A stretch of DNA of 64,000 nucleotides from Psychrobacter sp. PL19 (GTDB lineage Bacteria > Pseudomonadota > Gammaproteobacteria > Pseudomonadales > Moraxellaceae): the NCBI RefSeq assembly GCF_017875835.1, contig NZ_JAGING010000001.1, forward strand, positions 2,666,001-2,730,000, written 5' to 3'. Of the stretch, positions 4,994 through 45,531 are shown piece after piece (within the stretch, counting starts at the first letter, position 1; each line of letters starts with the position of its first letter). The notes below the pieces were generated by a model. That model had not been told where the DNA came from. It was given only the letters and a program-made list of their open reading frames with translations, and did not search any database. The position numbers and the translations under genes were made by a program.

Positions 4994-5142
4994 TATAGTC
5001 AATGAAAAGTAATATCGATACATAACCTACTGCTGGCATAAGTTTTTCTTGCTTGCTGTGCCTACGCAGACAGAGGCTGCAAAAAGCGTATGCCAGCAGT
5101 ACCGTCGCGTTTTTGTCGCGTTTTTAAGGTATGTTAACTATA
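4994..5142. repeat. Dispersed structured intergenic element, copy A
   Basis: Bounded by TATAGTCAA and TTAACTATA, which are inverted repeats of each other with one or two mismatches. Inside are long arms TACTGCTGGCATA and TATGCCAGCAGTA around a core with a further small hairpin. It is nearly identical in reverse orientation to 27559-27696 and 41210-41347, but 11 bp longer because GTCGCGTTTTT is tandemly doubled near one end. It lies between argC and hemE. Confidence 0.9.
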
Positions 5143-26208: not shown

Positions 26209-27315
26209 ATGAAAGCCATAAGCCCGCCTAATAATTTTACTAAATCGCCTAAGCTTGCGACCTTAACTGCCCTAGCGGCAGCGTGCACTATGATGCTAGC
26301 GGCACCTGCTATTGCTGCCCCTGATACTGCAACTACTGCTGATATCAGTACTAGTGCGCCTAGCGCTATCGACTCCAGCAAACGGGTTATTCGTCTGGCT
26401 CAGCCTAATGCTACTGTAAGTGCTGCAACTCAAACTAGCGCACAGTCAAATACCGTACAGCCCAGCAGTTCACAACAAAACAGTTCACAACAAAGCAATG
26501 TTCAATTTAGTACCGCACCAGCAGCAGTACCGCCACAACAACCAATACAAATACCTGGTGCGTCGGAGCTGACTGGATCGACTCTGGTGTATCAACGTGG
26601 GCCTATGACCAGTACCGGTATCGATATTAGCGGCGGTCAGCTCTCTAGTATCCCCACACCACAAGTGCGACTGTCAGATATTAGCTTTGTGCCTACGGTG
26701 TTAATCTCGCAGCAGCAAGGCTCAGGTATCGATAAGCTAGATGTCAGCTTGGTTGACGATTTCATCACAGAAGTGTCTCCTAACGCCCGTCACTATCCAC
26801 CAAACTTTCCTAACCGCACCCAACGTCATAATACCCGTGAAAAAATCAAAGTATTGGCTGAATGGATTGAACCTTATGCCAAAGCGCCTAATGCGTCTTA
26901 TGATGTGCTACTGCGGGCGGCCAAACTAAACGGTATGGGACGTAACTTAGATTTAGGTACCGCCTTTACGATACGTGGTGGACAGTATGTTGATCGCGCC
27001 ATTAAAAACAAGCCTGATAGTGGGGAAGCCAACTTTCTGTATGGCATGATGCTAGCAGAAGGCGGTGGCTTTAAAGAAGGCCAAAAGTATCTGGACCGTG
27101 CAGTAGCGCTTGGCTATACCGAAGCAGAACAAAGCTTGGCACAGTCAGATCTGTTGAGCGATCGCCGTAGCCAAGCCTTAGATCGTCTGCGTCGCCTTGA
27201 GCAACAAGTACCTGACAACAGTATTATTCGTCAACAAATCAAGTTAGTTGAAGACGGTAAGTTTTATATTTGGGATTTGCCGGCTCCTAACGTTAAAATT
27301 AAAGGTATGAGCTAA
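26209..27315 (+). CDS. Exported TPR/Sel1-like repeat protein of unknown function
   Basis: A 368-residue exported protein I cannot name. A signal peptide covers residues 1-37 (LAAACTMMLAAPAIAA). Residues 38-110 are Ser/Thr/Gln-rich and disordered, with repeated QNSSQQ. A middle region (about 115-185) contains VRLSDISFVPTVLISQ. The C-terminal third looks like TPR- or Sel1-type helical pairs: ANFLYGMMLAEGGGFKEGQK with YLDRAVALGYTEAEQSL, then SQALDRLRRLEQQVPDNS. It is probably a periplasmic scaffold or a surface protein partner. AAGGT lies ahead of the ATG. A strong terminator follows at 27441-27495. Confidence 0.75.
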   Translation: MKAISPPNNFTKSPKLATLTALAAACTMMLAAPAIAAPDTATTADISTSAPSAIDSSKRVIRLAQPNATVSAATQTSAQSNTVQPSSSQQNSSQQSNVQFSTAPAAVPPQQPIQIPGASELTGSTLVYQRGPMTSTGIDISGGQLSSIPTPQVRLSDISFVPTVLISQQQGSGIDKLDVSLVDDFITEVSPNARHYPPNFPNRTQRHNTREKIKVLAEWIEPYAKAPNASYDVLLRAAKLNGMGRNLDLGTAFTIRGGQYVDRAIKNKPDSGEANFLYGMMLAEGGGFKEGQKYLDRAVALGYTEAEQSLAQSDLLSDRRSQALDRLRRLEQQVPDNSIIRQQIKLVEDGKFYIWDLPAPNVKIKGMS

Positions 27316-27440
27316 CGTTAATGAGGGACTTAGGCTTCATTGTTTAGATGCAGCTATCAGTACGCGCTGATCTGTAAGCGTCGACACATAAGTACTGCTC
27401 AGTAAGCGCTGACGTGAAAAAATTCTGAGATTGAAACCAT

Positions 27441-27495
27441 AAGCGCGTTCGTTTTGTATTGACATTAAATCAATACCAAACGAACGCGCTTTTTT
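27441..27495 (+). terminator. Strong terminator after the repeat-protein gene
   Basis: A long hairpin with AAGCGCGTTCGTTT and AAACGAACGCGCTT as outer arms and GTATTGA/TCAATAC as inner arms, with one mismatch between them. It is followed by a T-run. It lies 125 bp past the stop codon. Confidence 0.9.
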
Positions 27496-27558
27496 GTGGG
27501 TGTGCTAATAGCTATTCGTCCACTCACCCATTTATCTAGCCAAACCTCATCCTTAATA

Positions 27559-27696
27559 TATAGTTAAAACACCTTAAAAACGCGACGGTACTGCTGGCAT
27601 AAGCTTTTTGCAGCCTCTGTCTGCGTAGACACAGCAAGCAAGAAAAACGTATACCAGCAGTAGGTTATGTATCGATATTACTTTTCATTGACTATA
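27559..27696. repeat. Dispersed structured intergenic element, copy B
   Basis: A 138-bp element bounded by TATAGTTAA and TTGACTATA. Internal arms TACTGCTGGCATA and TATACCAGCAGTA enclose a core with a second stem (CTGTCTGC paired with GCA and CAG around GTAGA). It is about 96 percent identical to copy C by eye and reversed relative to copy A. It lies just after the terminator at 27441-27495. Confidence 0.93.
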
Positions 27697-27711
27697 GCTT
27701 GTAAGTAACAA

Positions 27712-27753
27712 AGCTCAAATAAAACAGCTCAAATAAAATAGCTCAAATAAAAC
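27712..27753. repeat. 14-bp tandem repeat, three copies
   Basis: Three consecutive copies of AGCTCAAATAAAAC (the second with final T), about 90 bp upstream of the hydrolase lipoprotein gene and 16 bp from element B. Confidence 0.9.
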
Positions 27754-27842
27754 AGTACCATCACCAAAGTTCAGCTACACTTTTGTATGTGTCAATAACA
27801 TGCTGATTGCTAATTCTTAACTATTCTTTAATGAGAACCCCG

Positions 27843-30323
27843 ATGACGTTTGCCAGACTTGTCATAGCCCTAGCGGCGCACGCTAATAGAAAACTCACTG
27901 CTATCGCCCCCCTGTTCGCTTTAGTAGGAGTAATAGTGCTACTGCCAGCCTGCAGTACAATCTCAGTGGATAGGCAAGCCTCGGCAAAGACTATTTCTGC
28001 TCAGCGTGGCAATATCGTTACTGACAATAAACTCAGTAGCGATACCGCCTCAACCTTGTTATCAGCCGGTCTTAATGAGCAGGCATGTATGCAGCAATTC
28101 GACTTGTGCTTAGCGCAGCTCAGTGACAGCATGCTCAATGAGCATTATCGCCCAGCGCTGGCCATTTTTGCAGAGTTACACTATGCCAAAGCACGCGAGC
28201 TGGCAAAATCACAAGATTGCCGTGATGCGCTCTCACGTCCACCAATTGACCCTTATTATGCCAACGCCCCATTAACCCCTACTCAAGCAAACAACCAACA
28301 ACAAAATACCGATCAGTGTTTGGTTGGCTATCAGGGGCGACTATTTAATGCCGTTAAATACAGTTATACCTATCTATTTTATGACAGTTTAGATCATGAT
28401 TTTGAAGGAGCAGATTTAGACAGCCGCCGCTCAGTACAGCAAAATCGCATACCAAGTGATATTGACATCCAAACCCAAGACATCTATAACGCCGCCAGTA
28501 ACGATGTTATTACCCAACTTTATGACTCAGCTGATAACTCACATAAGCTGCTAGGCGATGGCAAAATCAACTACTTGTCAACCACGGCTGCCCTAGACGA
28601 GGATAATAAAGCCGCTATCGCTAATCGCTCCCCGCTTGCTGGCAAGCCCACCGACCAAATTAAGGTTATGGCCATGCAAGTGGATAAGTACAATCTTAAT
28701 GTTTATCTACCAAACGAAAACAACTATCTGCAGAATGCTAATAAGCAAACTTCTGCGCTAGTAGATTTGGTATCAACTTATGAGTTACGTCTCTCTGGCT
28801 TGAACTCGGTTAGCAAACGCCCTGGTTTGGGTGTGAGCTTGGTGGCTTCGTTAGATGACCGCTATACGACAACTATTCGCCAGCTACTAATCTCAACGCT
28901 CTCAGGCAGACTCGGTAAAGAGACGACCAATGGCAGCATGGATGACAGCGAAGCCAGCGCACGTATCTATCCTACAGGCCATTTGTTAATGACCGGTCTG
29001 ATTAAGCCTACCGGCGATAGCGTCCTCGATGTACTCAGTAGTAAGCAGCTCGGCATTCATTTATACAACCCCTACCGCAGCGAGAATGTCAATATATTGG
29101 GTGATGACTATCCCCTTGCGGCTAATTTCTCAGCAGGTTATGGCCTGTGGCTGGCGGAAAACCAACTTGACGGCGTGGGCTATTTAAACCTTTTGACCCG
29201 CCAGCAACAAGCCAGCTTACCCAAACTATTTATGTTAGAGCCCTATGACCCTGATAAGCGAGTGATTGTCATGTTACATGGTTTGGCATCGAGCCCGGCG
29301 ACTTGGGTTAATTTGACCAACGATATTTTTAATGATGACAAGCTGCGTGATAACTACCAAGTATGGCAAATTTTCTACCCTACTAACTTGCCTATTTTAG
29401 AAAATCGCTATCAGATTCAAGAATTACTTAAAGCTGCTTATCAGCAAACAGACCCTAGCGGGAAGAATCGTGCCAGTAAGAATAGCGTTATTGTGAGCCA
29501 TAGCATGGGGGCCATTATCGCTCGTATGATGCTATCTGATGATAACTTGACCCAAAATCTCGATGCATTAGACGATCAAAGCATGCTGTCCAGTAATAGG
29601 CGTCAAATCGATGCCATGCTAAAACAAGAATTTGGTAAAGCAGATCTAGGCAAACGCTTTGAGCTTAAGACCTTACCACAAGTCGATACCGCGGTATTTT
29701 TATCCGCGCCATTCCGAGGTACCGACTATGCTGATCGCTGGTTTACTCGCGCCCTGCGTCGTATTATTTATCTACCAATAAGTTTGGTAAAAACAGTCAC
29801 TGATAACTTAGCGACTATCGCCACTCAAGGTGATTTGGCACAGAATCCGTTAGGGGCTCTATACTTACAAAATGGCGCTAGCCAGTTGAGTAATAAATCA
29901 TCATTTATTCAACTAACCAAAGACATCACTATCAACGACCGCATTACTTATCACTCAATCATTGCTAATAACGATGCAGATATCACCAGAGGCTTGGCGC
30001 AAATGCAGCCGAATGGGGCGAAAATTGATTTGTCTCAAGCGTTACCAGAAGATAGTAAGATTATAGGCGACAGCGCGGCTAATAGCACTGACATGAGCGC
30101 GTTACCCAATCAGCCACTGGTGGCGGCAGTAACCGTTAATGAAGACATCAGCCAAGCGTTAACCGCACGGTTATCCGACGGTATCGTGCCTTATACTAGC
30201 GCCCATCTCGATGGTGCCGCATCTGAAACCATTATCAATGGGGGTCATAGTATTCAAGCCAATCCACAGACCATTCTAACCTTACGGCGTATTTTGCATC
30301 AACAGCTACAGAGCTCGCGTTAA
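27843..30323 (+). CDS. Alpha/beta-hydrolase (lipase/esterase-like) lipoprotein
   Basis: A lipoprotein of about 826 residues. The signal sequence ends in the lipobox LLPAC, so it should be lipid-anchored to a membrane. The N-terminal half (about 40-460) matches no family I recognise. The C-terminal half is an alpha/beta hydrolase: VIVMLHGLASSPATW forms the oxyanion-hole loop, VSHSMGAIIARM the nucleophile elbow, SDGIVPYTSAHLDGA carries a candidate acid, and GGHSIQANPQTI the catalytic His. The elbow is S-H-S-M-G rather than G-x-S-x-G. The frame is open to a TTG at 27807; ATGs at 27831 and 27843 are possible, and I prefer 27843 because GAGA lies 6 bp upstream and a clean signal peptide follows. 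Substrate unknown. Confidence 0.82.
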   Translation: MTFARLVIALAAHANRKLTAIAPLFALVGVIVLLPACSTISVDRQASAKTISAQRGNIVTDNKLSSDTASTLLSAGLNEQACMQQFDLCLAQLSDSMLNEHYRPALAIFAELHYAKARELAKSQDCRDALSRPPIDPYYANAPLTPTQANNQQQNTDQCLVGYQGRLFNAVKYSYTYLFYDSLDHDFEGADLDSRRSVQQNRIPSDIDIQTQDIYNAASNDVITQLYDSADNSHKLLGDGKINYLSTTAALDEDNKAAIANRSPLAGKPTDQIKVMAMQVDKYNLNVYLPNENNYLQNANKQTSALVDLVSTYELRLSGLNSVSKRPGLGVSLVASLDDRYTTTIRQLLISTLSGRLGKETTNGSMDDSEASARIYPTGHLLMTGLIKPTGDSVLDVLSSKQLGIHLYNPYRSENVNILGDDYPLAANFSAGYGLWLAENQLDGVGYLNLLTRQQQASLPKLFMLEPYDPDKRVIVMLHGLASSPATWVNLTNDIFNDDKLRDNYQVWQIFYPTNLPILENRYQIQELLKAAYQQTDPSGKNRASKNSVIVSHSMGAIIARMMLSDDNLTQNLDALDDQSMLSSNRRQIDAMLKQEFGKADLGKRFELKTLPQVDTAVFLSAPFRGTDYADRWFTRALRRIIYLPISLVKTVTDNLATIATQGDLAQNPLGALYLQNGASQLSNKSSFIQLTKDITINDRITYHSIIANNDADITRGLAQMQPNGAKIDLSQALPEDSKIIGDSAANSTDMSALPNQPLVAAVTVNEDISQALTARLSDGIVPYTSAHLDGAASETIINGGHSIQANPQTILTLRRILHQQLQSSR

Positions 30324-41209: not shown

Positions 41210-41347
41210 TATAGTTAAAATACCTTAAAAACGCGACGGTACTGCTGGTATAAGCTTTTTGCAGCCTCTGTCTGCCTAGGCACAGCAAGCAAGAAAAACG
41301 TATGCCAGCAGTAGGTTATGTATCGATATTACTTTTCATTGACTATA
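41210..41347. repeat. Dispersed structured intergenic element, copy C
   Basis: A 138-bp copy with ends TATAGTTAA and TTGACTATA, in the same orientation as copy B and differing from it at only about six positions. In this copy the central stem is a perfect palindrome TGCCTAGGCA. It lies between the surA terminator and the next terminator, so all copies occupy untranslated spacer. Confidence 0.93.
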
Positions 41348-41471
41348 TTCTCTAGAGCCACACAAAAATTATTAATGATCAAGCTATGTACCAAAATGTG
41401 TACCAAAATATGTACCAAATATTATGACTCATGACCTCAGACCTTTAAGATCAGCAATTTATACACAAAGA

Positions 41472-45385: not shown

Positions 45386-45531
45386 TATAGCTAGTTCAAA
45401 ATAAAATAGCTACATTTGTATCAACGTGCTACTGGTATAAATTTTTCTTGCTCGCTGTTCGCACGCGTGACAGAGGCTGCGAAAAAGCCATAACAGCAGC
45501 CCTGTGTCGTTTTTAAATTGGATTGACTATA
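45386..45531. repeat. Dispersed structured intergenic element, diverged copy D
   Basis: It shares the layout of copies A-C: an end GACTATA, the arm CTACTGGTATAA, TTTTTCTTGCTCGCTG, then ACAGAGGCTGCGAAAAAGCC, and a GTCGTTTTTAA block near the other end. The sequence is clearly diverged, and the central stem is CACGCGTG here instead of the TGCCTAGGCA of copy C. The 45386 end is uncertain. Orientation is as copy A. Confidence 0.7.

Follow-up and report, generated by a model that had tools for sequence, protein, structure and literature searches.

What is the 138-bp structured sequence that recurs between genes in this stretch of Psychrobacter DNA, how was it dispersed, and why does it keep a hairpin? 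The DNA analyzed here (the window) is a 64,000-nucleotide stretch of Psychrobacter sp. PL19, whose genome is a single contig of 3,119,997 bases (3.12 Mb). An initial annotation of the window described three matching copies (A, B, and C, with B and C reversed relative to A) together with a diverged fourth one. The arrangement of A, B, and C was confirmed, and the diverged copy proved to be a full-length member, D, scoring 103.7 bits. A covariance model drawn from 43 copies of nine genomes found four places only in the window, namely A, B, C, and D, each accompanied by a weak opposite-strand match because the element is near-palindromic. Copy A owes its extra length to an internal tandem duplication of 11 bp near the left end (GTCGCGTTTTT). 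The element ends are TATAGTYAA...TTGACTATA, and the terminal repeats TATAGTTAA/TTGACTATA are 89% complementary over 9 positions; the short terminal inverted repeats with a nested hairpin are as described. Likewise, no protein appears to be encoded, as the longest ORF overlapping copy B comprises 33 aa. Three 14-bp-spaced repeats of the AAATAAAACAGCTC type lie directly right of copy B (window 27703-27755), and short repeats of the GTACCAAAATATGTACC type lie beside copy C (window 41387-41420).

Table. Members of the repeat family in the window and the parts of copy B (window coordinates; positions in the last column are counted within the element).
Feature	Coordinates	Strand	Description
Copy B	27559..27696	+	138 bp; family strand as written 5' TATAGTTAAAACACC...TTGACTATA 3'
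Copy C	41210..41347	+	138 bp; 96.4% identity to B over its whole length
Copy A	4994..5142	-	149 bp; flanked by argC-like and hemE-like genes; empty site in relative G092
Copy D	45386..45531	-	Diverged 146-bp subfamily; plus-strand left end agrees with a resident IS630 terminal repeat at 25/30 bases
Left terminal region of B	27559..27588	+	Outermost TA is the duplicated target or equivalent
Right terminal region of B	27667..27696	+	Inward reading TATAGTCAATGAAAAGTAATATCGATACAT
Main stem, 5' arm of B	27589..27604	+	Positions 31-46; covarying
Main stem, 3' arm of B	27647..27662	+	Positions 89-104; covarying
Apical core of B	27605..27646	+	Positions 47-88; best-conserved part of the family

Next, we counted the family beyond the window. 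A 31-nt core pattern with up to three mismatches was found at 129 places in the genome (70 forward, 59 reverse); the reversed control pattern gave 0, which puts the repeat far above chance. With the covariance model there were at least 150 matches at E ≤ 1e-3, a lower bound because every one of the 150 candidates scored was a match. Many genomic copies had indeed been predicted, and they extend well past the four sites of the window. When 124 copies were compared with their consensus, the median identity was 96.4% and the minimum 67%, so that the wording "near-identical" was slightly strong. With strict filters and 31 candidates scored per genome, the family was present in 94 of 105 Psychrobacter genomes (E ≤ 1e-4) and, outside this genus, in one of 194 sampled Moraxellaceae genomes (95 of 299 family-wide); the earlier guess of Moraxellaceae was borne out. 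The sole match in another genus of the family (genome G143, E 3.5e-13) is possibly a transfer or an old relative. The strict 31-nt subfamily pattern of the host genome itself occurred in only nine of the 105 Psychrobacter genomes, as against 94 for the model, indicating that the species each carry their own subfamily. Copy number is also patchy between Psychrobacter species. A 17-mer scan of contigs gave 103 stretches, 100 of which were re-searched with the model; this left three, all from Psychrobacter glacincola. The species-specific subfamilies may reflect amplification in recurrent bursts, with different copies as the source.

The insertion site could be read exactly at copy A, which provided the one exact empty site obtained. 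In relative G092 the empty site reads AACGCTGAATATG-TA-TAACACTAAATATC, and the filled site in the window reads AACGCTAATATA-TA/TAGTCAA...TTAACTA/TA-TAACACTAAATATC. A single TA was thus the target, and it now flanks the element on both sides. At site B, other family members occupy the same spacer in two relatives, G090 (L242:1336-1483) and G036 (L243:2940-3091), and G092 is without any; these members were inserted independently, and therefore the same spacer was hit more than once. At site C, the relatives are without a full copy. Base-level joins at B and C were not obtained because the spacers of the relatives are too diverged or hold other members. As a whole, 109 of the 124 distinct copies were bounded by TA on the left and on the right, and in the same 124 any direct repeats extending past TA into the flanks did not exceed mismatched controls. 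The flanks were weakly and symmetrically biased, with A at -3 in 70 copies and T at +3 in 68.

A candidate parent resides in the same genome. The host genome contains 16 matches to PF13358 (DDE_3, an IS630-type transposase domain), and all six IS630 loci fetched from it showed paired TATAG ends, 914-920 bp apart. Some copies have an intact coding region of ~284 aa, and others have two frames of ~114-132 and 187 aa. Their proteins match Pfam DDE_3 and HTH_Tnp_IS630, and intact transposases matched NCBIfam IS630 at 1.7e-37 (L224, host genome) and 6.9e-39 (L213, relative G013). An IS-end profile was then prepared from 29 distinct ends of 18 loci in six genomes; the other 12 of the 30 fetched IS630 loci added no TIR pair, three being repeats of counted elements and nine being without a convincing pair. 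The element right end scored 9.4 and the left end 0.5 with this profile, whereas none of the remaining 132 TATAG sites in the window exceeded -2.0. Shuffled sequences reached the right-end score in 5 of 20000 cases and the left-end score in 147 of 20000, the latter giving modest support. In direct comparison with the IS end in L212, copy D was identical at the 25 bases given in the table, and two cousins were identical at 24 and 26 of 30 (the higher value belonging to a 147-bp cousin), where 131 control sites attained at most 20 of 30. The best values for copy B against six IS ends were 22 of 30 on the right and 20 of 30 on the left, the left value being equal to the single best control. The match to the IS630 terminal repeat is in register, with the right end and copy D above controls and the left end by profile only. 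An autonomous element with ends identical to those of the 138-bp form was not found among the six IS ends compared.

The element is 138-149 bp long, is without a transposase gene, is present in at least 150 copies, and duplicates a TA target at the one exact empty site. We therefore conclude with little hesitation that it is an IS630-type (Tc1/mariner-like) MITE, namely, a short non-autonomous DNA transposon. The initial annotation had proposed a MITE that is moved by a transposase encoded at another place, and this proposal is supported by the IS630 ends in register, the TA-duplicating empty site, and the high copy number. With high confidence, judging from the sequences, IS630-type machinery is the probable mover. 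The IS630 transposase, with its HTH and DDE domains, would bind the terminal repeats in trans, excise or copy the element, and insert it at TA.

We then analyzed the genomic context of the copies, with ORFs of at least 240 nt called mechanically and an overlap criterion of >60 bp. Outside ORFs lay 123 of the 124 copies, compared with an expectation of 24% from the TA sites of the window, 76% of which are in ORFs. The description that the element sits only in spacers consequently holds except for one copy, in L364, that overlaps an ORF end by 79 bp. Among the 118 copies with both neighbors in view, 59 were in tandem, 48 in convergent, and 11 in divergent spacers; convergent spacers were over-represented (25% expected from the intergenic TA sites of the window), and divergent ones were under-represented (21% expected). 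Genic insertions would be purged, which would leave surviving copies mostly downstream of genes. Relative to the 3' end of the nearest upstream gene, 54 copies were sense and 53 antisense; there was no bias, and an orientation-specific 3'-UTR function was rejected on this basis. The TTGACT of the right end resembles a -35 box. However, -10-like hexamers (≤2 mismatches) at the matching flank distance were not enriched, being found in 37 of 124 copies versus 27-36 at other offsets, and a portable outward promoter was therefore rejected. As to the remark that the element often follows a terminator, inspection by eye showed a hairpin with a T-run immediately before both B and C, but a simple terminator scan of 27300-27850 around copy B reported none. 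A terminator role, considered for the element, was rejected on the same scan.

The hairpin itself consists of a main stem of ~15 pairs (positions 31-45 with 90-104), followed by an interior in which a T-run lies opposite an A-run, and then by an apical stem-loop. For copy B by itself, the folding energy was -33.5 kcal/mol (z -2.1) for the strand as written and -39.4 kcal/mol (z -2.9) for its complement. In the consensuses of six genomes, identity was 98.4% in the core (positions 47-88), 89.2% in the 60 terminal positions, and 75.2% in the stem arms; the corresponding values for 34 representatives were 91.8, 81.5, and 76.6%. The 146-148-bp cousins were similarly 71-90% identical to the main consensus in the core and 60-75% at the ends. 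One would not expect a simple mobile repeat to have an inner core better preserved than its ends, and this counts against a pure MITE, which does not predict it. The stem arms, in turn, covary: 13 of 33 pairs had changed on both sides, cells with changes on both sides numbered 53 versus 16.1 in shuffles, and the covariation score was 0.196 versus at most 0.042 with the partners slid.

Such covariation could be a by-product of palindrome correction, in which replication switches template between the arms, rather than of selection for structure, and the element would then be a plain MITE. Correction of palindromes by template switching between arms is a known mechanism, and near-perfect palindromes exist in the family, e.g., the 147-bp cousin in L260. 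We give this explanation a little less than an even chance. However, it leaves the higher conservation of the core unexplained, and it predicts no strand asymmetry between G.U and A.C mismatches. In 55 aligned copies from ~30 genomes, stem mismatches comprised 151 G.U and 16 A.C cells, values raised both by common ancestry among the copies and by the model that had selected the rows. The changes were counted by parsimony on an approximate tree of 262 copies, in a test conceived after seeing the data and with several looks uncorrected. On internal branches, 27 changes led from Watson-Crick pairs to G.U and 11 to A.C, compared with 58:66 for unpaired transitions (Fisher p 0.0097). This asymmetry was also observed without the host genome (18:6, p 0.038) and in the BLAST-picked copies (11:2, p 0.0039), and it was weaker within the host genome alone (12:4, p 0.085). 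Terminal branches showed no excess (67:47 vs 204:163 unpaired, p 0.59). Furthermore, the strand as written folded better in six of six genome consensuses, two of which are near-identical, by 2.1 to 7.6 kcal/mol; contrary to these, full-length copy B folds better on the opposite strand.

The strand asymmetry and the conserved core together suggest selection on a single-stranded hairpin, and we treat the asymmetry, a post hoc result, as a lead. Selection in amplifying lineages would fit the covariation, the asymmetry, the core, and the absence of an orientation bias, although none of these requires it. Tentatively, and with the odds against it, spread of the transposon may depend on a strand-specific single-stranded hairpin, either as RNA or as ssDNA during replication. 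The transposase would recognize the ends only, and the apical motif on its freely covarying stem would be kept by selection in amplifying lineages, e.g., because it recruits a host protein or renders insertions innocuous for neighboring transcripts. Lineages that keep the hairpin would spread or persist better by some further step. If so, the MITE would have functional structured RNA as its cargo throughout the genus, and the old problem of what retains long hairpins in bacterial MITEs (palindromic origin versus a function in spread or tolerance) would become testable. RNA selection after insertion was considered separately and rejected inside the host genome, where the wobble states were symmetric (17 G.U vs 16 A.C; cells 58:29).

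Alternatively, the element could serve the host as a structured RNA or in RNA processing, e.g., as a 3'-end stabiliser, and be multicopy through host use. The covarying stem with its very conserved tip, the excess downstream of genes, and the preference for G.U over A.C on internal branches would agree with such a role. Nevertheless, we consider it very improbable, as the copies show no orientation bias toward the upstream gene, the terminal branches have no asymmetry beyond the unpaired control, copy number is patchy between species, and a relative has an empty site. Rfam covariance models gave no match either, neither in the window at gathering score nor up to E=5 for 27500-27760.

The initial annotation offered a large BIME-type unit as its other option. 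Least probable of all is such a REP/BIME-type unit, in which a Y1 (RAYT) transposase would disperse palindromes outside genes by way of single-stranded DNA: the element is palindromic, extragenic, and of high copy number, REPs have been predicted for Psychrobacter arcticus (2,260, with families unnamed in the available part of PMC12306157), and the genome has one IS200/RAYT-like Y1_Tnp gene (G000:C1:1488810-1489172, L484), but that is its only Y1_Tnp match, the units are single and 138-149 bp long instead of alternating 20-40-nt REPs, their ends match IS630 elements instead, and the terminal inverted repeats with a TA duplication lead us to reject it.

Taken as an IS630-type MITE, the element is by kind closest to RUP, Correia, and ERIC, and is an IS630-type MITE like RUP. 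According to the available portions of the sources, RUP of Streptococcus pneumoniae is 107 bp long with ~110 copies, has 9-bp terminal repeats like those of the resident IS630-Spn1 and a TA target (PMC3049150, PMC2229807), and is over-represented between convergent genes (PMC3049150). Likened by description only, the Psychrobacter element is similarly short and of high copy number, with IS630-like ends, a TA target, and a convergent excess. It differs from RUP in its length of 138-149 bp, its phylum, its genus-wide presence with species-specific subfamilies, and the stronger conservation of its core relative to its ends. Correia/NEMIS of Neisseria, as described in the accessible text of PMC2229807, are ~107/155 bp long with TA termini and target duplication, and their hairpin transcripts are proposed RNase III substrates. 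The Psychrobacter element resembles them in size, TA termini, and target duplication, but it is set apart, by description, through terminal repeats of ~9 bp, perfect or nearly so, instead of the 24 bp of Correia. Correia ends presumably also begin with TATAGT.

Similarly, the enterobacterial ERIC/IRU/RU-1 elements are outlined in the available text as ~127 bp long (PMC2759123), with 7-bp terminal repeats, TA ends, and a long hairpin (PMC2229807). Size, short terminal repeats, TA ends, and hairpin are shared with the Psychrobacter element; however, the ERIC/IRU/RU-1 parent transposase is listed as not known in the part of PMC2229807 available, whereas the Psychrobacter element matches IS630 ends. 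Within Moraxellaceae, MITEAba12 of Acinetobacter is reported (PMC6382973) as 111-114 bp long, with ends (GGCTTTGTTGCACAAA; GGCTTTGTTGC...) that tie it to a resident IS, its parent ISAba12, and with a 9-bp duplication. Both are thus Moraxellaceae MITEs with ends tied to a resident IS, but the TATAGTYAA ends and TA duplication place the Psychrobacter element in a different family. The word Psychrobacter is absent from the main text of PMC6382973. In the searches made, no known annotated repeat family explained the element: it had no Rfam match, and no description of it in Psychrobacter was found in the part of the matching papers covered, which lay largely outside subscription journals. The family explains a large part of the repeats found between genes in this well-studied, cold-adapted genus. 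Its candidate parents are co-resident, its subfamilies are species-specific, and its bursts are dated by divergence, which makes it a good natural experiment on bacterial MITE amplification.

Carriage by plasmids or phages was also considered. Neither copy B in plasmids or phages nor the 147-bp cousin in plasmids gave a match, in searches from which records very near the genome of the window were possibly excluded. Such carriage was rejected, the single hit being a 51-bp stretch of an Acinetobacter baumannii plasmid (NZ_CP151079.1:75087-75137) that partially matches (82%) the left end of a copy from G036 and is perhaps the end of a related element. Paired arrangements were observed as well. 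In L281 of G090, two copies in the same orientation (G090:C1:389704-389841 and 390498-390642) are separated by ~0.65 kb; the right end of the second is degenerate, and the two possibly form a composite unit. Host IS630 copies likewise occur in opposite-strand pairs 1.6-2.5 kb apart (G000:C1:1270540/1272990 and 2759679/2761304), possibly as composite or inverted pairs.
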